A DNA stretch of 64,000 nucleotides from an uncultured Selenomonadaceae bacterium. GTDB lineage: Bacteria > Bacillota > Negativicutes > Selenomonadales > Selenomonadaceae. Positions 35,000 to 48,260 of the stretch are shown here, piece by piece. The notes beneath the pieces were generated by a model. That model did not search any database and had not been told where the DNA came from. It saw only the letters and a program-made list of their open reading frames with translations. Position 1 is the first letter of the stretch; each line of letters opens with the position of its first letter. The position numbers and the translations under genes are program-made. The stretch spans positions 62,001 to 126,000 of the forward strand of contig CACYXR010000009.1 of the NCBI GenBank assembly GCA_902778455.1. Direction: 5' to 3'.

Positions 35000-35053
35000 G
35001 CATTACGATACAGAAGGATATTTCTATGTATATATTTAGGAGGGGAAAGTCAA

Positions 35054-35893
35054 ATGAAAAAACTGGTATTGATTCTCTCGGTGCTGCTCCTTGTCGTATT
35101 CGCGGCGGGCTGCGGCGGCGGAGACAAAAAGCCTGCGTCCTCGGGCGCGCCCGCTTCGTCCGGCGGCGCGAAGGTCACGCTGAAGGTCGGCGCTTCGCCG
35201 GTTCCGCACGCGGAAATTCTCGAGCAGATCAAGCCGATGTTGGCAAAGCAGAACATCGAGCTGAAAGTCATCGAGTTCTCCGACTACATCCAGCCGAACA
35301 TGGCGTTGGGCGACAAAGAGCTGGACGCGAACTTCTTCCAGCATGAGCCGTATCTCCTGAACTTCATCGGAGAGCACAAGAACCTGAAACTGAAGAATGC
35401 CGGCGGCGTCCATGTGGAGCCGATGGGCGTTTACTCGAAGAAGGTCAAGAAGCTGGACGAGCTGAAGGACGGCGACACCATCGCCATCCCCAACGATCCG
35501 ACGAACGGCGGCCGAGCGCTGCTGCTGCTTGAAAAAGCCGGCGTCATCAAGCTGAAAGCGGGACTCGGCGTCAAGGCCACAATCCAGGACGTCACCGAAA
35601 ACAGCAAGAAGCTCCAGTTCAAGGAAATCGAGGCTGCACAGCTTCCACGCTCCCTTGACGACGTGACGATCGCCGTCATCAACACGAACTTCGCGATGCA
35701 GGCGAGCCTGAACCCGACGAAGGATTCGCTCTTCATCGAGGACAAGACCTCGCCGTACTCGAACATCGTAGCCGTCCGCGAGGGCGACGAAAAGCGTCCC
35801 GAGATCCAGGCGCTGATGAAAGCGCTCCAGTCGAAGGAAGTCAAGGAATTCATCGAAAAGAAATACGGCGGAGCAATCGTTCCGGCGTTCTGA
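35054..35893 (+). CDS. metQ: Methionine-binding lipoprotein MetQ
   Basis: A 279-residue NlpA-family substrate-binding lipoprotein. The signal peptide ends in a lipobox (FAAGC, Cys near residue 20), followed by a low-complexity linker and the binding domain (VGASPVPHAEIL, EFSDYIQPNMALGDKELDANFFQHEPYL, IAIPNDPTNGGRALLLLE). It delivers methionine to MetNI at the outer face of the inner membrane. It has GGAGG upstream. The terminator at 35971-36000 follows. Confidence 0.96.
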   Translation: MKKLVLILSVLLLVVFAAGCGGGDKKPASSGAPASSGGAKVTLKVGASPVPHAEILEQIKPMLAKQNIELKVIEFSDYIQPNMALGDKELDANFFQHEPYLLNFIGEHKNLKLKNAGGVHVEPMGVYSKKVKKLDELKDGDTIAIPNDPTNGGRALLLLEKAGVIKLKAGLGVKATIQDVTENSKKLQFKEIEAAQLPRSLDDVTIAVINTNFAMQASLNPTKDSLFIEDKTSPYSNIVAVREGDEKRPEIQALMKALQSKEVKEFIEKKYGGAIVPAF

Positions 35894-35970
35894 TGAAAAT
35901 AACAGAAAACCCCGCCTTACTGTGGGCATGAAATAAGGATCTTATCAAAAAATCGATAATCTCCGAGCGA

Positions 35971-36005
35971 AAGAGCCATGCAGGTTCCTGCATGGCTCTT
36001 ATTTT
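35971..36005 (+). terminator. Terminator of metQ
   Basis: A perfect 14-bp stem (AAGAGCCATGCAGG and complement) with a two-base loop, then TATTTTAT. Confidence 0.85.
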
Positions 36006-36019
36006 ATAATTGAACGCCG

Positions 36020-36177
36020 AAAAAAAGCATTCCACGATGCAGAGGAGGGCAGGCGTTCTGCACCTACTACTGCCGAAACTCCTTCGGCAGAGGGAATGCT
36101 TAATATGATGCACTGGTATCTCCCAGAACTGAATCCTCAAATGAGGCCAACATCTCCCCGGTCGTCAGTGCATCTAT
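36020..36177 (-). ncRNA. Structured small RNA A, unknown family
   Basis: A complete transcription unit on the minus strand with no ORF. The promoter is TTGTCT (36207-36212), 17 bases, TAAACT (36184-36189). A first domain is closed by GATGCACTG/CAGTGCATC, with an inner CCTCA/TGAGG hairpin. A second domain is closed by AGCATTCC/GGAATGCT, which with its T-run is also the terminator (36020-36033); it contains a CTGCCGAA-GGAG-TTTCGGCAG hairpin. It shares ACGACCGG, ATTCAG, GGGAG and AGTAGGT blocks in order with RNA B next to it. Five GGA motifs, at least one in a loop, raise a CsrA-sponge possibility. Family unknown. Confidence 0.6.
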
Positions 36178-36183
36178 GACAAA

Positions 36184-36212
36184 AGTTTATCACAGTATCA
36201 GGAAATAGACAA
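36184..36212 (-). promoter_or_regulatory. Promoter of small RNA A
   Basis: Minus-strand TTGTCT, 17-base spacer, TAAACT, about 7 bases before the predicted RNA start. Confidence 0.55.
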
Positions 36213-36231
36213 GAAAACGGCAATCATCTTA

Positions 36232-36373
36232 AAACAAAAAGAAGCACCGCTGGATATGGGTAAGCCGTAAGATTCGACCTACTCCAACGATACTTCCCTT
36301 GAAGGCCTCCCCGGATGCTGAATGCAAAATCCCCCAGCTTAAACGTCCAAAACGACTCCGGTCGTCTGCCTTC
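36232..36373 (-). ncRNA. Structured small RNA B, unknown family, similar to RNA A
   Basis: A second transcription unit directly upstream of RNA A. The promoter is TTGTTG (36404-36409), 18 bases, TATACT (36380-36385) with an extended TG. The first domain is closed by TGAAGGC/GGCCTTCA and has an ACGAC-CGGA-GTCGT hairpin. The second is a 14-bp stem (36241-36254 with 36283-36296) followed by TTTTTG. The order of ACGACCGG, ATTCAGC, GGGGAG and AGTAGGTC matches RNA A although the stems differ, so the two look like paralogues with compensating changes. No ORF. Confidence 0.6.
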
Positions 36374-36379
36374 ACCCAA

Positions 36380-36409
36380 AGTATAGCACAGGATTAACAA
36401 GAACAACAA
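36380..36409 (-). promoter_or_regulatory. Promoter of small RNA B
   Basis: Minus-strand TTGTTG, 18-base spacer and TATACT preceded by TGTGC. Confidence 0.55.
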
Positions 36410-36466
36410 GACCATTATGTGAAAATAATCCAGTATATTTAGCTGTGACACTTAATTGTGAGTATT

Positions 36467-38083
36467 TTATTTTGCCCACCAACAATCTTTTCCTTTTATT
36501 GTTTTACCGCCATCCTTTTTGAAAGTGAAATAGAAACCTAATTTACGCGCTTCCTCTACTACCGGTTTTAATTCGACACCGCCAAGAATCCACAATGCGC
36601 CTTTGAATGGGCGCTTGTCCACATACTTAATATTGTAATTCTTGAGCAAGGCAATGATATCCTCCTCTTTTAGCGTTTCGTTTTCAAATCCCGGCAGTCC
36701 CGTCTGAACAGTGGTTGTAGTTTTTTGTGGTTGTGTAACATGCGTTGGAAATTCAGGTTTGAGATTATCTTTTTCCTCTACATCCGTGCGGCAGTTTCCC
36801 ATAAGTTCATTGAGCTGTGCATCAGGAATGTTACACTTTGACTCGTCTTCGCCTAGCTGCGCTTGGTCATCGTCATCATCGTAGTCGTCGAGAGACGCTT
36901 CTGCCAAAATTTCTTTTACTTCATCCGCAGTTAGGTCTAAGTCGTCAAACTCAATATCTTCTTCCGTGTCAGTATCGCTATCAGTGTTATAATAATCATA
37001 ACGCTCGTCGTCGGTGGGTTCTGAATACGTGTCTTGTGTGGGAAAAAGATTTTGTTCTAATGTTTCTTCTTGTGAAGGCAAACGCACAATATCTTCATTG
37101 TCTTGCACGTTTTTACTGTTGGCGAGAGACAAAATTTCCTTCATACCCCACAGTTCAAGCGTTATCATTCCAGCGGCATTTAGTTGTTTTGCATATTCTT
37201 TTGCATTATCGTTGTATGGGCAAGTTGCAATAAAAATAGCGCGTTTTACATTTGCACCGACGGCAGAACCGACTAATTTCTGGACGAGTTCCCGACCAAT
37301 AGAGGATTCGTTGCGCCAATGTTTACATTCAATATAGTATGTTTCTCCATCTTTTTGGGCAATAATATCTTTGCCACCATCATTCGTCGAGGCAGTAGTA
37401 TATGCTTTATAGCCATTTAAGTTCAGCATATAGGCAATCCATTCTTCAAATGCTCTCCAATCCATAGAACGGACAAAGAATTCGTTATTTTTAAAATCAC
37501 CTATTTCTTTAGGCTTCTTTATCTCTTTTTTTATTTCGATTGCTTTATCAAGTATAAGGCGATTTATTATTTCCGCAACTGCACCTGAAGAAATGCCTAA
37601 ATTGATATTCGAAATAGGGCGCCCATTTTTCTTAATAATGCCACCGACATTGGAATTAAAATTTAGACGAAAAACAGTAGTATCCATTCTTCTTACATAT
37701 AATTCGTCTAATTGGCACGAATACGTTGTTATATCAAATACGTTTGTCTGATGCCCATATTCTTGAATTGAAGATTTATCATAAATTTTAAACGCACAAT
37801 AACAAGGCCCACTAGAAAGTCTATAAAATCTAAAACAGGGGAATGATCTTGTAATGTCGTATTCAATGCTATTTACTTCACTAGAATAATCATAATTTAT
37901 ATGATTCGATATAATTGCCAACAATTGATCTTCTGTTGACGGTAGATTATTTTCAGAACGGGCGGATAATCGACTGAGGGCGAAGTTATTTGCCTTTATG
38001 GTATCTTTTTTTTCGGGCCATATTCTCTCTATAAGCCAAATAAACGGAGATAACACTATAGCAATCGCTCCAAACATTAACAT
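36467..38083 (-). CDS. Membrane-anchored Mrr-type restriction endonuclease-like protein
   Basis: A 538-residue ORF. An N-terminal hydrophobic segment (2-21) is followed by an unassigned domain (50-200) and an Mrr_cat nuclease domain (about 205-310) with the PD-(D/E)xK core: Glu 213, Asp 239 in GGKD, Glu 252 and Lys 254 in IECKHW, Gln 268. A very acidic linker (about 355-420) leads to a C-terminal domain (465-538; KYVDKRPFKGALWILGG) resembling one appended to other bacterial DNA-processing proteins. The first ATG lacks a ribosome site. An upstream ATG at 38145 after AGGAGGGAAAGG is out of frame by one base at an A6 run (38113-38118); joining them completes the membrane segment. AT-rich compared with the core genome. 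Likely defence function. Confidence 0.75.
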   Translation of the reverse strand: MLMFGAIAIVLSPFIWLIERIWPEKKDTIKANNFALSRLSARSENNLPSTEDQLLAIISNHINYDYSSEVNSIEYDITRSFPCFRFYRLSSGPCYCAFKIYDKSSIQEYGHQTNVFDITTYSCQLDELYVRRMDTTVFRLNFNSNVGGIIKKNGRPISNINLGISSGAVAEIINRLILDKAIEIKKEIKKPKEIGDFKNNEFFVRSMDWRAFEEWIAYMLNLNGYKAYTTASTNDGGKDIIAQKDGETYYIECKHWRNESSIGRELVQKLVGSAVGANVKRAIFIATCPYNDNAKEYAKQLNAAGMITLELWGMKEILSLANSKNVQDNEDIVRLPSQEETLEQNLFPTQDTYSEPTDDERYDYYNTDSDTDTEEDIEFDDLDLTADEVKEILAEASLDDYDDDDDQAQLGEDESKCNIPDAQLNELMGNCRTDVEEKDNLKPEFPTHVTQPQKTTTTVQTGLPGFENETLKEEDIIALLKNYNIKYVDKRPFKGALWILGGVELKPVVEEARKLGFYFTFKKDGGKTIKGKDCWWAK

Positions 38084-38109
38084 TACAGGCGCACAAAATA
38101 TTGCAACTA

Positions 38110-38145
38110 TTATTTTTTAATGCCTACCAATATATCTTCAACCAT
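38110..38145 (-). pseudogene. Probable true 5' end of the Mrr gene, separated by a frameshift
   Basis: ATG at 38145 with a strong AGGAGG-type site opens MVEDILVGIKK and then stops. A one-base shift back at the A6 run gives KIIVAIFCAPVMLMFG, which continues into the main ORF and forms a complete transmembrane start. Either the run has lost one A or the shift is programmed. Confidence 0.5.
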
Positions 38146-38407
38146 AACCTTTCCCTCCTTTCTTGGACTGATAATAGCATAAAGTAGAAAGCGATAGGTC
38201 GCTTTGGAAGAGACATTTCTATTTTCCACCTTTCGCTCTGGAAGCGTCCTCCTTTGCTTTGGATTGTCTTATGATAGAAAAGACAATCCAACAAGGATGG
38301 AAAAAAGAACGAATAGGTGAAACGACGGAACTTTAAAGGAAATATTTATGTTGTGTCGAATTGATAAACAAAATCTATTATGATACATGAATGGGGGAAT
38401 CATGACC
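38146..38407. other. Intergenic region with two hairpins, start of the HTH gene leader
   Basis: It contains AAAGCGA-TAGG-TCGCTTT (about 38190) and a strong GGATTGTCTT/AAAAGACAATCC hairpin at 38262-38291 between the divergent Mrr and HTH-like genes. No gene seen. The hairpins may be transcriptional signals or operators. Confidence 0.45.
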
Positions 38408-38890
38408 ATGAATGAAACCTTGCTTACACAGATTGAAGCGTATATAGAAGAAAATTATTCTGAGCCAGTAAAATATTCTATCAACCTCAGTCATGAGACC
38501 TGGACTGACCGATTGAAGAATCGAATAGAATCCTTTGTTGACAACAAAAAAGAAGATTCCTTTGCTGAACATCTATGGAAACTGATTCTAGAAAAAGGGA
38601 AAGACGATGTTGAGGTCTATAAGAAAGCGCATCTGGATCGGCGCCTGTTCTCGAAAATCAGAACGGACAAGGGTTACAAGCCAAGCAAAAGTACTGCTGT
38701 GGCTTTGGCTATTGCATTGGAATTGGAGTACACAGAAACGCAAGATTTGTTGCAACGCGCGGGCTATTACTTATCAGTGAGTTCGAAGGAAGATCTTATC
38801 ATTCGATATTTTATCGAGCATCAACAATATGACATTTTTTTAATCAATGAAGTTCTGTATCACTACGGGTTCAAGCCGTTAAGGGATTGA
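38408..38890 (+). CDS. HTH-like accessory protein
   Basis: A 160-residue soluble protein starting MNETLLTQIEAYIEENYSEP. The C-terminal two thirds (HLWKLILEKGKDDVEVYKKAHLDRRLFSKI...) is an all-helical domain with the KPSKSTAVALAIALELEYTETQDLLQRAGY block typical of a family of small proteins in Firmicutes, found alone or appended to macrodomain proteins and looking like an XRE-type HTH. GGGGGAA lies 8 bases before the chosen start; two earlier in-frame ATGs exist. The protein at 41941-42168 has a similar first 20 residues. It is inside the accessory island. Confidence 0.6.
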   Translation: MNETLLTQIEAYIEENYSEPVKYSINLSHETWTDRLKNRIESFVDNKKEDSFAEHLWKLILEKGKDDVEVYKKAHLDRRLFSKIRTDKGYKPSKSTAVALAIALELEYTETQDLLQRAGYYLSVSSKEDLIIRYFIEHQQYDIFLINEVLYHYGFKPLRD

Positions 38891-38963
38891 AAAAGCTACA
38901 TTTGCTTCATATGTTTTTTCCATACTGCCACCTCTTATCTCAAGTGCTCGACATCCCCATCTT

Positions 38964-39878
38964 TTATTCGTCAGGTTCCCGCGTCCAGAGTAGTTTACAA
39001 CTTGCCAATCGACGGTCTCGATCTGGGGATTGAGTTCCCTTTTGTACGTTTTCGGGACTATCTCCCGACTGTTTCAGTTGCTCCTGATTCCATGGATACC
39101 AGAACACAGGATGGAACCACTCCTTATTTCTGCTGAGTAATATTTCATTAATCCGTCCTTCATCATCGGTCTTAAATAAAACATACATAACAATATCATG
39201 CGGCTTTTCATAATAGCCTAATTCCAGAAACCACTCATTGTACCCTTGTTCTTGTAATTCCCGGTTATCGTAGTCAATTCTGTATAAATAATTTCCGTTT
39301 TCCTTCTGATCATAACTCCTATCCAATAGTTTGTATTTCAATACTTTCAGCACTTCTTCGCGCCCAGAATATACCTTCGGATTGAAATCAGACTTCAGAA
39401 TACACAAACTGCTGAGATTCTCCGCTAAATAATTAAATCTAAGCTCGTCCGACCATACCGTGAATACATTGCCGATATAATATGCCAACCTTCTGCTTTC
39501 CATCCATTGTATGATTTTATCCACTTCAGTATAGTATTGCTTTTTTTCAAAGGCAAACAGTACATCCGGATCTCTATATTCACAATTCTGGATGAAATCA
39601 TACCAAATAACAAAATGCTCTGTTTCATCGATATGAACTTCTGTGTCACAGCACCCCACACATCCGCAGCAACACACACGTATATTGACTGGCTCGTCTT
39701 TTAGGGCATATACTCTCATCAAGCTTGTATATAACTCAGACGGCCACAAAGGCAAGCTACAAGAAATGATATCACTAAGTTCTTTACCATCAATATAGAT
39801 TTCAACTACATCCGTAGGTTCCTTATCTGGACCAAAAGTATGAGCCGAAAGCTTAAAACCGATTATGTTGACCTTCAT
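38964..39878 (-). CDS. Unknown protein with a Cys-rich CCCGCxGCC motif
   Basis: A 304-residue soluble protein. Residues 1-65 have a beta-rich part (EIYIDGKELSDII). A cysteine-rich motif (VCCCGCVGCC, about 68-77) is followed by VIWYDFIQ; this order resembles a widespread family of uncharacterised proteins with C-x-C-G-x-x-G-C then V-x-W-x-x-F. The rest is mixed and tyrosine-rich. GGAGAGGTGG precedes the ATG. It lies at the left end of the small-gene run and on the same strand, so might be part of that unit. Function unknown; immunity-type roles are only a guess. Confidence 0.5.
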   Translation of the reverse strand: MKVNIIGFKLSAHTFGPDKEPTDVVEIYIDGKELSDIISCSLPLWPSELYTSLMRVYALKDEPVNIRVCCCGCVGCCDTEVHIDETEHFVIWYDFIQNCEYRDPDVLFAFEKKQYYTEVDKIIQWMESRRLAYYIGNVFTVWSDELRFNYLAENLSSLCILKSDFNPKVYSGREEVLKVLKYKLLDRSYDQKENGNYLYRIDYDNRELQEQGYNEWFLELGYYEKPHDIVMYVLFKTDDEGRINEILLSRNKEWFHPVFWYPWNQEQLKQSGDSPENVQKGTQSPDRDRRLASCKLLWTREPDE

Positions 39879-39990
39879 GAAAAACCACCTCTCCAGAGAT
39901 ATCAGTCTTTCTCCTACTCATAGTTCTTGAACTAATCCTCACTCGCATCCGTATTTTTAATTCTATGGATATACTCGTCCTTCTCACATT

Positions 39991-40404
39991 TCACCCATCT
40001 CCTTCTTGCGACTTCGCATCTCTGTCCATTAAAAAATCCATATCCTCTTTACTCAGTTTCCAACAGTCACCTTCTAAAAGATTGCGCCAAGCGGCTTCCC
40101 TTTCCGAGTCTGTCTTTGCTTCTTGCAGATCGTACCATTTCTCCTCGGTCTTGGGAGCAATGTTGCAGCCTTTATTATCTTTTTCCTTAACCTCCGTAAC
40201 GCTTGATTCTCCTTGGAACTCCTTATTCTCCTCGGACATACCGCTATTCTCCTTTAATGCGATTTTCCCAGCTTCATCTGCCAGCCTCTCCGCTTCTTCC
40301 CTGCTGATACCTGGAAGGAATTTTGGCGTCAGTCGAATATGCTCTTCCCTGTCCTTTGTCGTAATCCACCGGAAAAATTCATCTTTCTCTGATTCGCTCA
40401 TCAT
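39991..40404 (-). CDS. Small acidic island protein 1 (137 residues)
   Basis: A soluble, Glu- and Lys-rich helical protein without signal peptide. The segment WITTKDREEHIRLTPKFLPG followed by SREEAERLADEA is shared with the next two genes. Its C-terminal LQEAKTDSEREAAW recalls LQEAKTIEEVKAIL in the gene at 41581. AGGAGGTG precedes the ATG pair at 40404. No known family. Last gene of the tandem run on the minus strand. Confidence 0.5.
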   Translation of the reverse strand: MMSESEKDEFFRWITTKDREEHIRLTPKFLPGISREEAERLADEAGKIALKENSGMSEENKEFQGESSVTEVKEKDNKGCNIAPKTEEKWYDLQEAKTDSEREAAWRNLLEGDCWKLSKEDMDFLMDRDAKSQEGDG

Positions 40405-40462
40405 TTTCAAAGCACCTCCTTGTCTTTAAAACTCTATAGAATGTGAGCCCTCCATTAGCTTA

Positions 40463-40624
40463 TTATTTATCCTCATTGATTGACCCGAGCACTCTGTCTG
40501 TTACTTCTTCTGCTTCTTCTCTCGTCATTTCTGGCGATAACTGCATAACTAAATTTATTGCTTCTTCTCTGTCTGTAGTGCTTACCAGCCTACACATCAA
40601 ATCCAGCTCTTGTTCTTTCGTCAT
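40463..40624 (-). CDS. Small acidic island protein 2 (53 residues)
   Basis: MTKEQELDLMCRLVSTTDRE opens a 53-residue protein with STTDREEAINLVMQL and TREEAEEVTDRV, clearly like the core of the neighbouring 137-residue protein. The 5' end overlaps the gene at 40590 by 35 bases, which supports coupled translation. Function unknown. Confidence 0.5.
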   Translation of the reverse strand: MTKEQELDLMCRLVSTTDREEAINLVMQLSPEMTREEAEEVTDRVLGSINEDK

Positions 40625-40781
40625 TGTCCCCGTTCACGCTCTCCTTGTATGATTTCTCGAATTCCTGTATTAGAAACTCCGTCGTTGTTTTTGGGAAAAG
40701 TTTCTTCCCAATTTCCACAAACTCCTGAAGGTCATCCGTCATAGCCCACTTGAAAATTAAACCACTTTTCGATTCGTTCAT
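40590..40781 (-). CDS. Small acidic island protein 3 (63 residues)
   Basis: MNESKSGLIFKWAMTDDLQE opens a short helical protein. KWAMTDDLQEFVEIGKKLFPKT aligns in pattern with the WITTKDREEHIRLTPKFLPG segment of the 137-residue protein. No family. Start-site signal is modest. Confidence 0.45.
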   Translation of the reverse strand: MNESKSGLIFKWAMTDDLQEFVEIGKKLFPKTTTEFLIQEFEKSYKESVNGDNDERTRAGFDV

Positions 40782-40832
40782 TTATTTTCCCCTTCTTGTA
40801 TCTCAGCGATGCTAGAAGCTGAGCGCAGTTTT

Positions 40833-41111
40833 TTATTCAACTCTCTTTCTTGCTGTGGTGACAATTCTTTTTTCTCGCCCATACGGGCAGTCCTCCTCCG
40901 CTTCTTTGATAGATATTTCCGCCGATCGGTTCAAGGCTTCCTCTGTCGGGATCGTCAAGTCTAATATTACATCTAACGCCGCTTGTGATACTTCCTTGCT
41001 TTCCTTGCGCTTCTTCTCTACCCATTCTATCCACTCGTCCGCCGTCATTTTTCCTGACGCTAACATTCTCATTTCTTCCTCAGTGATTCCGTTTTCTATA
41101 TTTCCTGACAT
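40833..41111 (-). CDS. Small acidic island protein 4 (92 residues)
   Basis: MSGNIENGITEEEMRMLASG opens the protein; the ITEEEMRMLASGKMTADEWI segment matches LTPEEMLEILSGEVSPEEMI of the gene at 41180, so these two are paralogues. The C-terminus is basic. AAAGGGGCGG lies before the ATG. Unknown function. Confidence 0.5.
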   Translation of the reverse strand: MSGNIENGITEEEMRMLASGKMTADEWIEWVEKKRKESKEVSQAALDVILDLTIPTEEALNRSAEISIKEAEEDCPYGREKRIVTTARKRVE

Positions 41112-41179
41112 TACTGCCGCCCCTTTCTTTCGTTCCAGTTTAACAATGCACCTAAAAAATGCATGCGGTCAGCCTATTG

Positions 41180-41353
41180 TCAATTTCCGTTCTCCTTTTC
41201 AGCCTCCTTCTCCCAACGTCTGATCATTTCCTCCGGTGATACTTCCCCTGATAGAATTTCCAACATTTCCTCTGGCGTTAAAACGCTTCCTTTTTCGTCT
41301 TTCACTTTCTTCGGCTCGTTCTGATCTTCCGGTATAGGCTTTTTCTTTTTCAT
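41180..41353 (-). CDS. Small acidic island protein 5 (57 residues)
   Basis: MKKKKPIPEDQNEPKKVKDE opens a 57-residue protein with LTPEEMLEILSGEVSPEEMI, the paralogous core of the previous entry. AGGAGG lies 9 bases before ATG 41353; a longer frame to 41431 would start at a poor site that overlaps the upstream gene's stop. Confidence 0.5.
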   Translation of the reverse strand: MKKKKPIPEDQNEPKKVKDEKGSVLTPEEMLEILSGEVSPEEMIRRWEKEAEKENGN

Positions 41354-41420
41354 CTTTCCATTCCTCCTGATGTAATCTCTGGACAAATCTGTACCCCTAT
41401 ATTTCTGATTCGCTGCTGAT

Positions 41421-41570
41421 TTAGTTGTCATCCTCGTCCATTTCTTCTTCCTCGAGTTTTTCAGCGAAGTGCATTTCAGGCATCAAGGCGTCAAGCCATT
41501 CAACAAACTGTTCCCACGAGGAGGATATGCATTGGAACCATATATAGTTCGAGTCTTTTTCCATCTTCAT
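41421..41570 (-). CDS. Small acidic island protein 6 (49 residues)
   Basis: A very short acidic protein opening MKMEKDSNYIWFQCISSSWE and ending in a Glu/Asp-rich tail. The ATG at 41570 lies 10 bases downstream of the stop of the gene at 41581, with GAGGGGCG as ribosome site. The core WEQFVEWLDALMPEM has the same W-x-x-x-V-x-W character as the 92-residue protein. Function unknown; a weaker call because of length. Confidence 0.4.
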   Translation of the reverse strand: MKMEKDSNYIWFQCISSSWEQFVEWLDALMPEMHFAEKLEEEEMDEDDN

Positions 41571-41580
41571 CCATCGCCCC

Positions 41581-41934
41581 TCAAAGCGGTTTTTCTTTCA
41601 TATCGCGTTGCAACCTTTCCATTTCTTCGTCAATCTTGTATGCCTCATCCCAACGGGCGTCCTCTTGTTGCGGATCGTCACAAAGAACCGCTTTAATAAG
41701 CGTGTCTGCATATTGTTCTTCCAAGTGAATCATCAACTCATCACAACTCATTTCGCTTTTCTGTTGTTTGAAATCATCCGTTTCCTCCGTTAAATCAGGA
41801 AGGTTCCAGAATTTCGGAGCCTCTTTGATATCCTCCTCCGTCAAATCCGGGTCTGTTCTTAAAATTGCCTTGACCTCCTCGATGGTCTTCGCTTCTTGCA
41901 ATTTCATTGCCCGCTCAAAAATTTTGTCGTCCAT
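41581..41934 (-). CDS. Small acidic island protein 7 (117 residues)
   Basis: MDDKIFERAMKLQEAKTIEE opens a 117-residue, strongly acidic helical protein; TDPDLTEEDIKEAPKFW is a further conserved-looking block. The C-terminus is Glu/Arg-rich. AAGGAGG precedes the ATG, at the end of the preceding gene. No family recognised. The largest intact member after protein 1. Confidence 0.5.
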   Translation of the reverse strand: MDDKIFERAMKLQEAKTIEEVKAILRTDPDLTEEDIKEAPKFWNLPDLTEETDDFKQQKSEMSCDELMIHLEEQYADTLIKAVLCDDPQQEDARWDEAYKIDEEMERLQRDMKEKPL

Positions 41935-41940
41935 GAGAAA

Positions 41941-42168
41941 TCAATCCTCCTTCCACTGACTTCTCTCATTTTCCGTCCTTCGTAGGCTGCTGTCGCCTCG
42001 AAGATGTATTTTTCTTCTAATTCCCAAGTTTTCGCCATCCGTTCTTCTTTGTTGTCCATCATCAAATGTCTTCTCAATTCGTGAACTCATTGGGTGGTCT
42101 ATTCGTTGAGGCTCGATGTAGTTGTCATTGAGATATTTCTCTATCTTTGCCAGTAGTTCCTTATCCAT
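41941..42168 (-). CDS. Small island protein 8 (75 residues), similar N-terminus to the HTH-like protein
   Basis: MDKELLAKIEKYLNDNYIEP is the same pattern as MNETLLTQIEAYIEENYSEP in the gene at 38408. After about 30 residues the similarity is lost; a one-base shift gives MDNKEERMAKTWELEEKY, which looks more like the continuation in the intact protein, so this may be a frameshifted remnant. AGAGGTGG precedes the ATG. First gene of the run on the minus strand. Confidence 0.45.
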   Translation of the reverse strand: MDKELLAKIEKYLNDNYIEPQRIDHPMSSRIEKTFDDGQQRRTDGENLGIRRKIHLRGDSSLRRTENERSQWKED

Positions 42169-42248
42169 AAATCTCCACCTCTGAACTAAAACTTCCATAT
42201 CACTGCTTTAGTCAGATTATATACGAACGAAAAACAAAAAAGGTCGCT

Positions 42249-42872
42249 TTGAAAGCGACAAATGAAATAAGCAAAGCATGGCTGGACGTTCGCGCCTTCG
42301 GACAGTTGTTTGCGTTCAAGGGAGGAAAAGGGAGCGATGACGAGGGCAATACGGACGGCGTTTCCATCGGAGTCAGAGGACCGGTCTCCGTCCATACGGC
42401 GGTCAGCGTCGATCCAATCAATGCTTCCAGTATGCAGATTACCAAGAGCGTAAACGGCGAGCCTACCAAAGACGGAAAGAAAAGCAGCGATACGATGGGA
42501 ATGAAGCATCGCGTGGATTTCGGCGTATATAAGATGCAGGGCAGTATCAACGTACAGTTAGCCGAAAAGACCGGCCTCAGCGAGGAAGACGCAGAGCATA
42601 TCAAGAACGCCTTGGTCACTTTGTTTGAAAACGACGTATCGTCCGCACGGCCGGAAGGAAGCGTGGAAATGACAGAGTTTTATTGGATCGTGCATCCGAA
42701 CAAGTCGGGAAAAGTTGCGTCGGCAAAAATCCATCGCAGTGTAAAAGCCCAAAAGAAAGAAGGGGTATCTCGTGCGCGGGAATTGGCGGACTATAACTTC
42801 GACGACAGCGAATTGAAAAGCATCGATGGCCTGAAGATTGAGCATTATCGCGAGGGTGAATTGGTTTCGTGA
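42249..42872 (+). pseudogene. cas7: cas7 (csd2) of type I-C CRISPR-Cas, 5'-truncated
   Basis: The 207-residue frame is the C-terminal two thirds of Csd2/Cas7, the backbone subunit of the type I-C Cascade that binds crRNA. Recognisable blocks are WLDVRAFGQLFAF, GVRGPVSVHTAVSVDP, QITKSVNGE, DTMGMKHRVDFGVY, SARPEGS and the end GLKIEHYREGELV. Intact relatives have about 95 further residues at the front (a RAMP-like fold start). No start codon with a ribosome site is present; only TTG 42249 opens the frame. cas3, cas5, cas8, cas4, cas1 and cas2 are absent, so the system is dead. The island's small genes abut its broken 5' end. Confidence 0.85.
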
Positions 42873-42923
42873 GATTGACAATATGCACGGAAAGGTTGAA
42901 TGACAAGGGGTCTTTTTGCCCCC

Positions 42924-42956
42924 GTCGCCCTCCGCATGGAGGGCGTGGATTGAAAT
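42924..42956 (+). CRISPR. Solitary type I-C CRISPR repeat
   Basis: A 33-base repeat with the type I-C form: GTCGCCCTCC, GGAGGGCG stem partner and GTGGATTGAAAT end. It is 51 bases downstream of the cas7 remnant and in the expected orientation. No second repeat is found in the window. The base after it is the first base of the recombinase-derived sequence. Confidence 0.85.
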
Positions 42957-43751
42957 ATCAGCTTCCTGATTGTCGAGAATACGCACGAAGCCATCATTGA
43001 CAAAGACACGTTTGACATTGTTCAGCGCATCCGAGACGGAAGACGGCGGTTGACTCCCCTTGGAGAGCCGAATATGCTTTCGGGTATGCTGTACTGCGAG
43101 GATTGCTGCAAGAAACTGTACCAAGTTCGGACGAGATGCCTCAAACCCGGCCACGAATATTTTGTCTGTTCGTCATATCGTATGAAGCGGCGCGGATGCA
43201 CGGCGCATTCGATTCGCAACGTGGTAATCGAGAAAATCCTGCTGAAAGAGATTCAAAGGATTGTCTCTTATACGCGCACGAAAGAGAAAGAGTTCGTTGA
43301 GCTGGTCATGAACAAGTCCAAGGCGGAACTGGCCAAGGCCTTGCGCGAATCCAGAAAAGAGCTTGACAAAGCCCAAGAGCGGCTAAAGAAGATAGACGCT
43401 ATCTTCAAGAAGCTTTACGAAGACAACGCGGACGGCAAACTCAGCGATGAACAGTTTGCTAAAATGTTAGCGAGCTATGAGTCGGAACAGGATGAATTGA
43501 AAAGCCGTTCGGAGGAACTCAAAGCGGTCATTGCGCAGAACAACGCCAGCGCGGAGGACGCCAATCGGTTCATTTCCAAAGTGCGGAAGCACAACGACAT
43601 TAAGGAACTCAGCGCTGGGTTGATCCGTGAGTTTGTGGAAAAGATTTACGTATCTGAGAAGCAAGTAGTTGACGGTAAAAAGGTGCAAAAAATAAGAATC
43701 CTGTGGAACTTTATCGGAGAATTCACTCCACCCACAGGATTCAAGGGTTAA
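42957..43751 (+). pseudogene. Large serine recombinase, 3' fragment
   Basis: A 264-codon frame that opens immediately after the CRISPR repeat (ISFLIVENTHEAIIDKDTFD), with a stop codon inside the repeat upstream. It includes the end of the Recombinase domain, a zinc ribbon (CEDCCKKLY, C-x-x-C-x-x-C-like with later CS and GC), a long coiled coil (about 120-210) and a C-terminal DUF4368-like end. The N-terminal catalytic Ser-recombinase domain is missing, so it cannot act. It is a remnant of an integrative element. AT-rich bias ends near 43750. Confidence 0.85.
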
Positions 43752-43806
43752 AAATGATCTTTATTGCGCATTGACTACGGCGGGGTTTTCTGTTGGAAGG
43801 AATTCC

Positions 43807-46683
43807 TTATGCGCAGTCGTGAGCCTCGATAAACTCGACGTATTTCTCCTTCGGCATCGGGCGGGAGAACAGGAAGCCCTGACCGTAGGTGCAGCCGTTT
43901 TCCAGCAGCAGGCGCTCCTGCTCCTCGGTCTCGACGCCCTCACAGAGCACCAGCATATCAAGACTGGCGCCGAAATTCACCACGTTTTTGAGGATCATCA
44001 GACCACGGTCGGATTTCTCGGAAGCCAGCAGCATGCTCCTGTCGATTTTCATCACATCCATCGGCAGATGCTGCAGCATGGCGATGGACGAATAGCCGGT
44101 GCAGAAATCGTCCATGGCGATGATGTACCCCATGTCCCGGAGCGCCGCGACAATCGACGCCGCGCTGGTAGACTCCTCCTTCGTGTCGTAGTCGATGAAA
44201 GCGGTCTCGGTCAGCTCCAGCTCGACCGCGTTGTCAGGCAGGCCGGAGGACTCCTTGAGCTCGCGCATGCGCTCGACAAACCCCGCCTCGCGCATGTGCA
44301 GCCCGGACAGGTTCACCGCGATGGGAACCAGTTTCCCGCTCTCCTCCAAAAATTTCTGCTGCAGCTTGCAGACCTGCTCCAGCATATAGTAGTCGAAAGA
44401 AATAATAAAGCCGTTCTTCTCAAAGAGGTCGATAAACTTGAAGGGCATCAGGAAGCCAAGCTCCGGGCTTTGCCAGCGAACCAGCGCCTCGGCGCCGATG
44501 ATTTTATGGGTGCGGAGGTCGTATTTCGGCTGGAGCCAAACCTCGAACTCCTCGTTTTCCAGCGCCTTGCCCATCAGGGATTCGATTTTCTTTTCCTGCA
44601 CCCGCCGTTTTTGCAGTTCCTCATCGTAGACGCCGATGATTTCCCCATGCTGCACGGCCTCGTTCCGCGCCACGTCGGCATGCGCCATCATGTGACGCAA
44701 ATCCACGGGAATCTCCGTCGGGAGGTCACAGAGACCGGCCCTGTAGCTCATGCGGACATCCGCGTTCTCGCCCTCGAACTCGGAAACCTCCGCCATCAGC
44801 TTTTCCGTCGCTTCCTTGGAGGTTATGCCTTCCACCTTCCGGCAGACCAGGAACATTTCCGAAAGCTCCGAGCTGATGCCGTCGTAAAGAATCCAGTCGT
44901 TCTTCGCCTTCATTTCCCCGATCAGCTTCCGGATTCCTGCGTACAGGACTTCCGGGTCGTAAGCGGCCCTCAAAAGGTCGAAGCGGTAGACGCTGAGGTT
45001 CATCACAAACAGCGCGCCAGCCAGCAAATCTTCTTTATGGCGTTTCCGGATCAGGTCCGGCGCGAATTGTTCCAGCCAGCTTATGGTGTGCGTGCCGGTC
45101 AGGGGATTCCGATAGGCCGCGTCGAAAAGCTGCAGCGAGGATTTTTCGCGGATCCGGCCGATATAGGCCAGCACGCCGATGGCGATCGCGGCGGCTGCCA
45201 GCACCGCGCCGACAACCCCCAACGGATTCTCGTAAATAAAGGTCTTCCAGTTTTGCTCCGGCGTTGTCTGCGTCATATATTTCTGCACAATCTGCTGGAT
45301 TCTCGCTTCACCGATATGGGCAATTTCCTTGTTGATGATGCTGAGCAGCAGCGGGTCGGCCTGCTCGCTGACGGCCATCGCCATGTGGGAACGGGCGACG
45401 CCCTGTCCGCTGGTATAGAGGTCGTTGTAATTGGCAAGCTCCTGCTGGACCGTGAAGGATTTCGCGAAAAGCACGTCCGCTTTCCTTCGGCTCACTGCTT
45501 CGTAACAGTCCGAAAAGGTTTCGCACCAGAGAATCTTATCGGGGGGGAAGTTTTTCGAGACGTAATTCTGAATAAAGAAATGATTGCGGGGGCAAGCCAC
45601 CTTCGGCGAGTCGGGGATTTCCCCGTATCGGCGCATAACCGGCACATATTCAAAATCCAAATACGGGGTCGTGATATTCGCCTTGTGCTCATCGGCCCGG
45701 TTGTAGTTCGCGTTGAAATGGGTCGCGACGTCGATTTTTCCCTCGCCCAGGAGCCACATCATTTCCGTGTTGTTCTTTGTCTTTTGCAGCTCGAAGCGGA
45801 CGCCCAGATCGGTCTCTGCAATGTCCAATATGTCCCGGATAACCCCCTTGGCCTCGTCGCCCTCGAAATAGGTCAGCGGCGGCTGGTGACCGGAGGTGGC
45901 CGCGAGGATGACCGGATGGGCGCGCAGATATTCCCGTTCCTCACCGCTCAGCACCAGCGGGACGCCGCCCGTATGATGCAGGGAAACGGCCCGGAAATTC
46001 GGGTCGATCAGCAGCGTCTTCTGGATGCCCGACTCGAGAACCTGCTTGACGTCCGTCCTGCCCTTCCGCACGGCAAGAAGGATATTGGCCGGAAACAGGA
46101 TCCGCTCCACGGGCACCGCTTCGTCAAACACGAAATCGCTGGTGATATAGCCGCCGATATACCCATACCGGAAATCCTTGTGCAGCGAATCCAAGTCGTC
46201 ATAAGGCACAAGCTCGAATTCGCCGAGAGCGCCCAGCGCGGTTTCTTCGGGATGGCTTTGGAAATAATCGACCATCACGCCGTAAAGCGGCGTGTAATAG
46301 CCGACACGGAGCGGTCCGCTCTGCGTCGTACCGTAAGGGTGTGAAAGATAGACGGGAGTCGCGGCGATATACCGCCCCACGAAGTCCATCGTCTCCGTCC
46401 CGTTGGTCAGGCGCGTCACAACCCCCGCGAACACATCGATTTCCCCTTCAGCCAGCGCGCGCTCCGCGTCCCCCGGCGCGATTTCATGGTAAGACGTGTT
46501 GTATTCCGTATAGGCCATGGCCTTCTCGATATTCTCGTAAATCGCCCCGGAATAATCGCCGTTCGCGTCCTGCGTGAAATACTCCGGCGATTTCACATAG
46601 CCGACCTTCAGCAAGGGCTCTGCTTCACACGGGCTCGCGAAAAAGATCGCCGCCAGCAAAATGAGACACAACCGGCACAACAT
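43807..46683 (-). CDS. c-di-GMP phosphodiesterase with two solute-binding sensor domains
   Basis: A 958-residue protein: signal peptide (1-21), two tandem periplasmic solute-binding type 3 domains (about 24-245 and 255-490) as in BvgS-type sensors, one transmembrane helix (about 500-520), a degenerate GGDEF (NPLTGTHTISW; GGDEF motif absent) and an EAL domain (about 700-955). EAL residues are present: EALVRW, NLSG, ELTETA, DDFCTGYSS (DDFG is DDFC), KIDR, CEGVET and YGQGF. It should break down c-di-GMP in response to a periplasmic ligand, perhaps an amino acid. Next to a cyclase. Confidence 0.9.
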   Translation of the reverse strand: MLCRLCLILLAAIFFASPCEAEPLLKVGYVKSPEYFTQDANGDYSGAIYENIEKAMAYTEYNTSYHEIAPGDAERALAEGEIDVFAGVVTRLTNGTETMDFVGRYIAATPVYLSHPYGTTQSGPLRVGYYTPLYGVMVDYFQSHPEETALGALGEFELVPYDDLDSLHKDFRYGYIGGYITSDFVFDEAVPVERILFPANILLAVRKGRTDVKQVLESGIQKTLLIDPNFRAVSLHHTGGVPLVLSGEEREYLRAHPVILAATSGHQPPLTYFEGDEAKGVIRDILDIAETDLGVRFELQKTKNNTEMMWLLGEGKIDVATHFNANYNRADEHKANITTPYLDFEYVPVMRRYGEIPDSPKVACPRNHFFIQNYVSKNFPPDKILWCETFSDCYEAVSRRKADVLFAKSFTVQQELANYNDLYTSGQGVARSHMAMAVSEQADPLLLSIINKEIAHIGEARIQQIVQKYMTQTTPEQNWKTFIYENPLGVVGAVLAAAAIAIGVLAYIGRIREKSSLQLFDAAYRNPLTGTHTISWLEQFAPDLIRKRHKEDLLAGALFVMNLSVYRFDLLRAAYDPEVLYAGIRKLIGEMKAKNDWILYDGISSELSEMFLVCRKVEGITSKEATEKLMAEVSEFEGENADVRMSYRAGLCDLPTEIPVDLRHMMAHADVARNEAVQHGEIIGVYDEELQKRRVQEKKIESLMGKALENEEFEVWLQPKYDLRTHKIIGAEALVRWQSPELGFLMPFKFIDLFEKNGFIISFDYYMLEQVCKLQQKFLEESGKLVPIAVNLSGLHMREAGFVERMRELKESSGLPDNAVELELTETAFIDYDTKEESTSAASIVAALRDMGYIIAMDDFCTGYSSIAMLQHLPMDVMKIDRSMLLASEKSDRGLMILKNVVNFGASLDMLVLCEGVETEEQERLLLENGCTYGQGFLFSRPMPKEKYVEFIEAHDCA

Positions 46684-46703
46684 ACCCGCGTCCCCCCTTC
46701 TTT

Positions 46704-48260
46704 CTATCGTATCGCGGTTTCCCTCCGCAGTGTTTTCGCCTTGTACAGGCTCTTGTCGGCCTCGCGCATCAGTCCCAAAATATCGGCGTCCGGCGAGCAG
46801 ACAAACTCCGCTGCGCCCATGGAAAGCTCCACGAGGTACGGTTTCCGGCTGCTCTCGTTGTATTCCCGAAGCAGCCTGCGCACCCCTTCAATAGCCTTGG
46901 CGCTGTCGCCATGCTGCCCAAAAGCCAGAATCACGAACTCGTCGCCCCCCGAGCGGCTGATCACAGCATCCTCGCCGAAGCCCTCCATGAGCAGCCGGGC
47001 CGCGGCACAAAGCGCATCGTCCCCCGCCGCATGGCCGATTTCGTCATTGATGTGCTTCAGATGGTCAAGATCGGCAAGAACAATCATCGCTACCTGCCCT
47101 TCGTGCTCGGCCATCGCTTCCCCGGCCTTCCGCTTGAATCCGAAACGATTGAACAGTCCTGTCAATTCGTCGGACAAAGCCTGCTGCTCCATCTTTTTGT
47201 TCTCGTCTTGGATGGAGCGCATTTTCTCGACGCCCCGCGCCAACGCCCCGATCTCGTCCACGCCGCTTTCCAGCGCCGGCTCGTCACCGATGCTTTGGAA
47301 CTCGCTGGCGATTTTATGCAGGGGCTCCGAGATGGTGTGCGCGAAAAACCGGACAATCACGAAGGCCAAAAGGATCGTGACGAAGAACACCGCCGCTACA
47401 GCCTCCAAAAGCTGGCGGATCCGGGCGTTCACCCGCTCCTGGGGAAAAGAGGAAACAATCGCCCATCGGTTGCCCGAAAGATCGAAAGGCGTCACAGCGG
47501 CAAATCGCTCCGTGCCGTCGGACGCGCGGAACTTCGTGAAGGTCTGCTCCTCCGCGGCGATTGCTGTCCGGATCGCCTCTTCCAGCCGGTCGTCCGTCGC
47601 GTTTTCCCCGACAAACTTCGGGGGATCGGCGATCCCCGATTGCTCTCTGCACCCGACCACCAGCCCGTCCTCAGCGATGATGTAAATACTTTCGTCCGAG
47701 AAAATCTCTTTCTCCAACACCTTTTCCACCAAGGTGTAAAGATGGACGGAAGCGAACAGCACGCCGCGCAGCTCGCCGTCCGAGAAAACCGGCTGGAGCA
47801 CCATTGTCTGCATTTTCCGCGTTGTCTCGCCGAGGAACGGTTTGGTGATATAGGGCAGTCCGGTACGGACCACCCGCTGGAAGTATTCCCGCGAGCCGCG
47901 GTCGAGACGCACGCCGTCGGCGCGAATCGTCTGCCCGTCCGGGCGGGCGAACAGAATCTGCCCATTCAGCGGGCTCGTCTTTTTCAATGCGTTCAGTTCC
48001 CCCAGGACGACCGCCTCGTCCTCCGAAAGCAGCGCGTCGGGATGGGCCGCCGCCACCTTCAGCGGCAAATGGATATCCGCCACGGAAATCTGCATCCGCA
48101 GCGCCGCCTCGTTCCCGATGCACCGCGCTAACAGCACGTTGCCTCGTGAAAGGAAATCGCTGGCCATATAATAGGTGACGCCGGAACTCAGTACAAAGCA
48201 AAGCGCCAACAGCGGAAGCAGCAGCAGCATAAACTTGGCATTGACCGATTTGATCCTCAT
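46704..48260 (-). CDS. Cache-GGDEF diguanylate cyclase
   Basis: A 518-residue membrane protein: transmembrane helix (about 10-32), dCache-like extracytoplasmic domain (35-275), second helix (about 285-308), HAMP-like linker and GGDEF domain (about 350-515). The active site reads RSGGDEFVIL and substrate residues are seen in LADLDHLKHINDEIGH. The RxxD inhibitory site before GGDEF is missing, so feedback inhibition is unlikely. It makes c-di-GMP and sits 20 bases upstream of the EAL protein gene on the same strand, forming a make/break pair. A parS site lies 127 bases upstream. Confidence 0.92.
   Translation of the reverse strand: MRIKSVNAKFMLLLLPLLALCFVLSSGVTYYMASDFLSRGNVLLARCIGNEAALRMQISVADIHLPLKVAAAHPDALLSEDEAVVLGELNALKKTSPLNGQILFARPDGQTIRADGVRLDRGSREYFQRVVRTGLPYITKPFLGETTRKMQTMVLQPVFSDGELRGVLFASVHLYTLVEKVLEKEIFSDESIYIIAEDGLVVGCREQSGIADPPKFVGENATDDRLEEAIRTAIAAEEQTFTKFRASDGTERFAAVTPFDLSGNRWAIVSSFPQERVNARIRQLLEAVAAVFFVTILLAFVIVRFFAHTISEPLHKIASEFQSIGDEPALESGVDEIGALARGVEKMRSIQDENKKMEQQALSDELTGLFNRFGFKRKAGEAMAEHEGQVAMIVLADLDHLKHINDEIGHAAGDDALCAAARLLMEGFGEDAVISRSGGDEFVILAFGQHGDSAKAIEGVRRLLREYNESSRKPYLVELSMGAAEFVCSPDADILGLMREADKSLYKAKTLRRETAIR

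Follow-up and report, generated by a model that had tools for sequence, protein, structure and literature searches.

Gene content of the array

The window analyzed in this study is a stretch of 64,000 nucleotides from an uncultured Selenomonadaceae bacterium. It contains eight small minus-strand ORFs (s1 to s8; 137, 53, 63, 92, 83, 49, 117, and 75 aa), which were all found where a preliminary description of the sequence had placed them. As that description held, the products resemble no recognized family, with no match above cut-off in Pfam, NCBIfam, PHROGs, or PADLOC, and a sequence search against solved structures returned no match for the array.

The first ORF, s1 (39991..40404), encodes an A domain in its N-terminal ~45 aa and a B domain in its C-terminal ~45 aa, the latter detected at E = 5e-6 by a profile built from other genomes, and is preceded by a strong ribosome site, AAGGAGGTG. 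Both s2 (40463..40624, 53 aa) and s3 (40590..40781, 63 aa) are lone A domains. These three ORFs form a true family, as the preliminary description had proposed: s1 scores z = 13 to s2 and z = 6 to s3 against shuffled sequences, and a profile from other genomes detects all three at E values of 1e-12 to 1e-15. The tail of s3, DNDERTRAG, overlaps the start of s2 by ~30 bases, in the same relative frame as that of the giant genes over the nested genes described below. A ninth minus-strand ORF absent from the earlier account (s4b, 40779..40883, 34 aa) encodes a truncated A domain (MGEKKELSPQQERELNKKLRSASSIAEIQEGENK) that is found by the A profile at E = 4e-4 and scores z = 4.7 to s1; it overlaps s4, and its stop codon overlaps the start codon of s3 (ATGA).

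The next two ORFs share a C motif. In s4 (40833..41111, 92 aa) the motif (ITEEEMRMLASGKMTADEWIEW) is followed by an unassigned tail and resembles the SHOCT-like family PF22746 at a sub-threshold score (E = 0.014, 15.5 bits against a cut-off of 27 bits). In s5 (41180..41353) the motif is LTPEEMLEILSGEVSPEEMIRRW, and the ATG at 41353, with AGGAGG 8 bases 5′ of it and a product of 57 aa, is more likely to be the start than 41431, which would give 83 aa. The suggested paralogy of s4 and s5 is supported, though over a short alignment (z = 4.1, reached by 0 of 1000 shuffles). Further along, s6 (41421..41570) encodes the C-terminal fragment (WxxFxxWLDxLMPEM, z = 12) of a 135-152 aa protein whose full-length version is present in two other genomes (G009:C22 and G008). 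The acidic 117 aa product of s7 (41581..41934) has a C-terminus weakly resembling the D module of other arrays (domain i-E 0.007). The N-terminus of s8 (41941..42168) is like that of an HTH-like neighbor at 38402-38890 (z = 7.1) and is followed by an unrelated tail, and s8 is probably a truncated copy of a protein similar to this neighbor. Because s6 is a C-terminal fragment and s8 begins as an N-terminal one, neither counts as a full small gene, and the array is thus in part debris. No solid relatives of s4 or s7 were identified among the 189 genomes of the family.

Some general features attributed to the array need qualification. A separate ribosome site for each gene is seen in most cases, being of the AGGAGG type for s1 and s7 and of the GGGG/GAGG type for s3 (AAGGGG), s4, s6, and s8, and it is weak in s2; among the free-standing A ORFs, s1 and s3 therefore have sites of their own. 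The overlaps said to be several are reduced to a few clear ones (s2/s3 and s4/ninth ORF), since s5 and s6 do not overlap unless the long start of s5 is used. Acidity holds for six of the eight ORFs (net charge -4 to -18), with s8 neutral and s5 at -3 only with its short start.

Genomic neighborhood

An Mrr nuclease gene (PF04471, E = 2e-25) and a cas7 remnant adjoin the array, in agreement with the preliminary description. The Cas7 remnant (42249-42872) lacks the N-terminal third and aligns to positions 83-247 of the PF05107 profile; in genome G010, a Cas7 that is 95% identical to it occurs alongside what appear to be other cas genes. A recombinase-like tail lies next to the array at 43050-43751, and no direct repeats of at least 20 bases are present in 42000-43900.

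The neighboring minus-strand gene n304 (38964..39878) encodes a conserved N-terminus of ~130 aa and a variable C-terminus. No known domain was recognized in it, and a search of viral contigs with n304 was empty. Relatives of n304 are located near A-domain genes in G038 (adjacent), G102 (~4 kb away), and G009 (~18 kb away). The n304 family occurs in 14 of the 189 family genomes, and two members lie directly downstream of an RtcB-like gene.

A gene nested within giant polyvalent-protein genes

Searching the 189 family genomes with the A-domain profile revealed that some of the matches are short open frames within far longer ORFs. These nested A ORFs, found at 17 Selenomonadaceae-type loci, start with ATG, span ~52 codons (range 50-64), and lie in the +1 frame of giant genes that carry the polyvalent-protein Pfam domains LPD38, LPD3, ART-PolyVal, and ddrB-ParB. 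Their start is conserved at all 17 loci, with a AGGAGGTG-type (GGAGGTG-type) site 8 nt before the ATG. Read in the giant frame, the site and start give YARRCF(D/E)NDER, and the remainder of the overlap is Gly/Arg/Ser-rich and poorly conserved. The preliminary description had tied the array to genome conflict, and this is borne out by the occurrence of both A and B modules within genes for polyvalent proteins in prophages and mobile elements.

The nested A ORF is present in 14 of the 15 family genomes that have the upstream giant domain, and in the fifteenth (G012) the corresponding position is occupied by another ORF, which is 47 codons long and has AGGAGG. The part of the giant protein that follows the nested A differs from locus to locus, and includes ART, zincin-like (HEQFH), and other LPD-like parts. 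One giant gene (L018) contains three nested ORFs, two of B and one of A, all in one shared relative frame. In three remnants (L070, L074, and L077) the giant frame is broken and the A ORF is open. A programmed frameshift from the giant frame into the A frame, for which s1 offers CTT TGA after the ribosome site, was considered and rejected, as the TGA is not conserved and the site and ATG are. No giant gene with an A4 domain was found in the window's own genome.

Several further observations were made at these loci. At L070 (8144), a decayed polyvalent piece with four giant-frame stops over the open A ORF is located between nadD-like and proA-like chromosomal genes. Two +1-frame ORFs of 85 and 117 codons, at L168 (9015-10313) and L079 (485), are alike (RAxALMxDxxxxNP) and may represent a second hidden family. 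The giant gene of L088 (4244 codons) contains, besides its A ORF, a 125-codon +1-frame ORF near codon 1551 behind AAAGGAG. Directly downstream of the giants at L071 (3801), L072 (11918), and L018 (2644) are genes that, by eye, resemble the antitoxin domain SocA/Panacea (DUF4065).

The AlphaFold2 model of s2 comprises three helices (mean pLDDT 86). Structural searches with this A model returned only generic helical matches (best Foldseek E value against the PDB, 2.2; best VIA-align Z, 5.3), and the best match to viral structures had an E value of 0.11.

Selection on the nested frame

The chance that a nested frame is open given the giant protein ranges from 0.11 to 0.84 per gene, hence openness alone is weak evidence, and the phase of substitutions was compared in seven disjoint locus pairs (six for the flank). 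Upstream of the nested ORF, differences at giant codon positions 1/2/3 number 119/89/221, the third position being fastest, as is typical of a gene. Over the nested ORF the counts are 158/116/98, so that giant position 3 is now the slowest (chi-square p = 3.6e-12), as expected if it equals the second position of nested codons; in the nested frame, differences at position 3 exceed those at position 2 (p = 2e-4). The usual phase order is back downstream of the nested ORF. Mean pairwise protein identity is 45% for the nested frame and 36% for the giant frame over the same bases, compared with 54% for the giant protein upstream. This flip of the substitution phase demonstrates, at the level of base comparisons, that the nested frame is under purifying selection.

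Relationship between window copies and nested genes

A profile built from the nested ORFs only was searched against 1249 ORFs of the window and retrieved s1 (E = 9e-16), s2 (E = 1.6e-15), and s3 (E = 1.5e-12), with no other noteworthy match in the window. The start region of s1, including the ribosome site, is identical to that of the nested gene at L083 at 31 of 32 bases, and s1 retains a footprint of the giant frame, RRCFENDERIRE. In a tree of 52 alignment columns, the window and nested copies, together with L070 and a Sel1 copy from G009, are separated from the other arrays by a fully supported split. Taken as sequences, s1, s2, and s3 are hereby established as free-standing members of the nested A subfamily.

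No single clade unites the three window copies, s3 pairing with the nested copy of L071 (97/95) and s2 standing apart, in an alignment of ~50 residues that is weak outside a few forks. Their separate positions among the nested copies argue, as far as so short an alignment allows, against simple tandem duplication and for separate acquisition, and the local duplication with divergence that had been suggested for this group is accordingly disfavored. A decayed giant gene beneath the entire array was also considered; it was rejected because giant proteins match the window at s1 only, through the overlap with the A gene.

Related arrays in other genomes

Named source records of A-domain relatives are from Selenomonadaceae. 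Among 300 genomes of the class, A-domain matches are confined to this same family, and collections of phage and plasmid records yielded no match. One related array, on contig C1 of G009, distributes modules A, B, and C and a D-like tail over five very small minus-strand ORFs within 1.4 kb. A 68% identical relative of the s5 C motif is fused behind a B domain there, which indicates that the modules have been shuffled. Additional A and B genes are located near an M78-type peptidase gene in G030 and G102, and in G101 an A gene adjoins the gene for a 701 aa protein. In-frame C-terminal A domains were identified in an 851 aa protein of G102 and a 240 aa Sel1 protein of G009. A comparison of neighborhoods revealed no Cas7 or Mrr close to the arrays of G009, G101, and G102. 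About 3 kb from the A/B array of G030 lies a 1235 aa ORF of Cas12a-like appearance (L068, 334-4041).

Discussion

Polyvalent proteins are believed to accompany the DNA of mobile elements and to fend off host defenses, and each of their genes is taken to be one giant ORF. The giants in this study carry the same signature domains (LPD38, LPD3, ART-PolyVal, and ddrB-ParB) as those described by Iyer et al. (2017; PMC5512222) and differ from them in encoding a separate, overprinted small protein; the text of that article does not mention nested genes and contains no word beginning with "overlap". The nearest parallel to the nested A gene is the ShiLan-type insertion, in which an HNH homing endonuclease of ~195 aa with a GTG start is inserted out of frame in a phage methylase gene (PMC11855218). 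In both cases a second frame hides an ORF without interrupting the host gene; the nested A, in contrast, is only ~52 aa long with three predicted helices, has a strong ribosome site, and has free-standing relatives in arrays.

We propose that the array is an accretion of modules from the mobile-element pool, that A is an overprinted adaptor or regulator, and that the chromosomal copies are partners or decoys, a reading to which we give an even chance. The modules (A, B, C, and fragments) would have been gathered from a gene pool common to Selenomonadaceae and their phages and mobile elements. On the giant transcript, internal initiation would yield a separate small acidic protein besides the giant one, which we infer with moderate confidence. 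As the following domain changes while A stays, the A protein might serve polyvalent proteins generally, and not one toxin, as adaptor, chaperone, or regulator, a role that we assign with low confidence; immunity to a specific toxin inside the giant was rejected on the same grounds. The chromosomal copies may have been captured singly into a decaying locus, represented by the Cas7 remnant and the HTH-like and s6 fragments. If still functional, they could serve as partners or decoys upon entry of an element, and a chromosomal pool of decoys or partners against incoming elements is speculative. The combined scenario in which a +1-overprinted helical partner controls or accompanies the giant protein, copies of it were freed, arrayed, and fused to Sel1, and host arrays act as decoys against elements, seems rather unlikely.

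The strongest competing explanation is that the locus is a graveyard of mobile-element and decayed-gene fragments, in which some ORFs are open by chance and have no current function. The fragmentary nature of s6, s8, and the ninth ORF agrees with this, as do the adjoining Cas7 remnant and recombinase-like tail, and s4 and s7, which have no clear relatives, need no explanation by adaptors or overprinting. However, in s1, s2, and s3 the A domain is still full-length, the starts are kept, and the ribosome sites are mostly good, and comparable arrays occur in G009, G030, and G102; debris as a full account appears possible but doubtful.

An array of immunity proteins, antitoxins, or anti-CRISPR proteins, in which each small acidic protein neutralizes a nuclease or toxin, would fit the acidity, paralogy, and sequence variability of the products, the sharing of modules with conflict proteins, the adjoining Mrr and Cas7 remnant, and the variable C-terminus of the n304 family. 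No toxin gene adjoining the array was recognized with Pfam or PADLOC, however, no array protein has a PADLOC match, and the effector or structural parts that come after the A ORF differ among the giants; we regard this function as improbable.

Similarly improbable is that the A proteins are leader-only relatives of Nif11-type RiPP precursors, with the core lost and the leader fold reused. Nif11 and Nif11-like leader peptides (PF07862, TIGR03798; PMC2887384) have a short leader domain and form tandem paralogous arrays, a likeness shared with the A family. The C-terminal A modules of the 851 aa protein of G102 pass the Pfam Nif11 cut-off (35.1 against 23.8 bits), the A8 profile matches Nif11 leaders from the window's own and related genomes (E = 1.4e-5), and the window A6 matches A8 (E = 5e-7). 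The same genome contains true tandem arrays of Nif11 RiPP precursors (L193, 4045-7411, on C19; L197, 6683-9342, on C11), with double-glycine sites and varied cores, one of them beside a radical-SAM-type gene. The window and nested members nevertheless fail the Nif11 profile: no window-array match was obtained in a search of the window's own genome and none for 20 A members in Pfam, and the direct comparison of A6 with Nif11 fails at 1.8% probability. The array sequences contain neither a double-glycine site nor a core peptide, and no maturase or transporter was evident next to the array when the genes of 35000-47000 were read by eye. Nif11 identity was thus rejected for the window members at the 23.8-bit threshold and the remote link was kept, in that the A family appears remotely Nif11-like, via intermediate arrays, yet without RiPP features. 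A literature search, with most subscription journals outside its scope, found no papers joining Nif11 with prophages or polyvalent proteins.

That the nested ORF is no gene but a by-product of giant-gene codon usage is very improbable, for although a single nested frame can be open by chance, the ribosome site and ATG are conserved, the substitution phase is flipped, and in-frame and free-standing relatives exist.

Under the proposed accretion of mobile-element modules, the array looks like mobile-element genes standing alone. The conservation of, and selection on, a small gene in a second frame imply that a product of mobile elements is overlooked by standard annotation. The free-standing arrays provide a handle on it: expressing this protein from them needs no giant gene, which opens its binding partner and its influence on the entry of phages or plasmids to direct tests.
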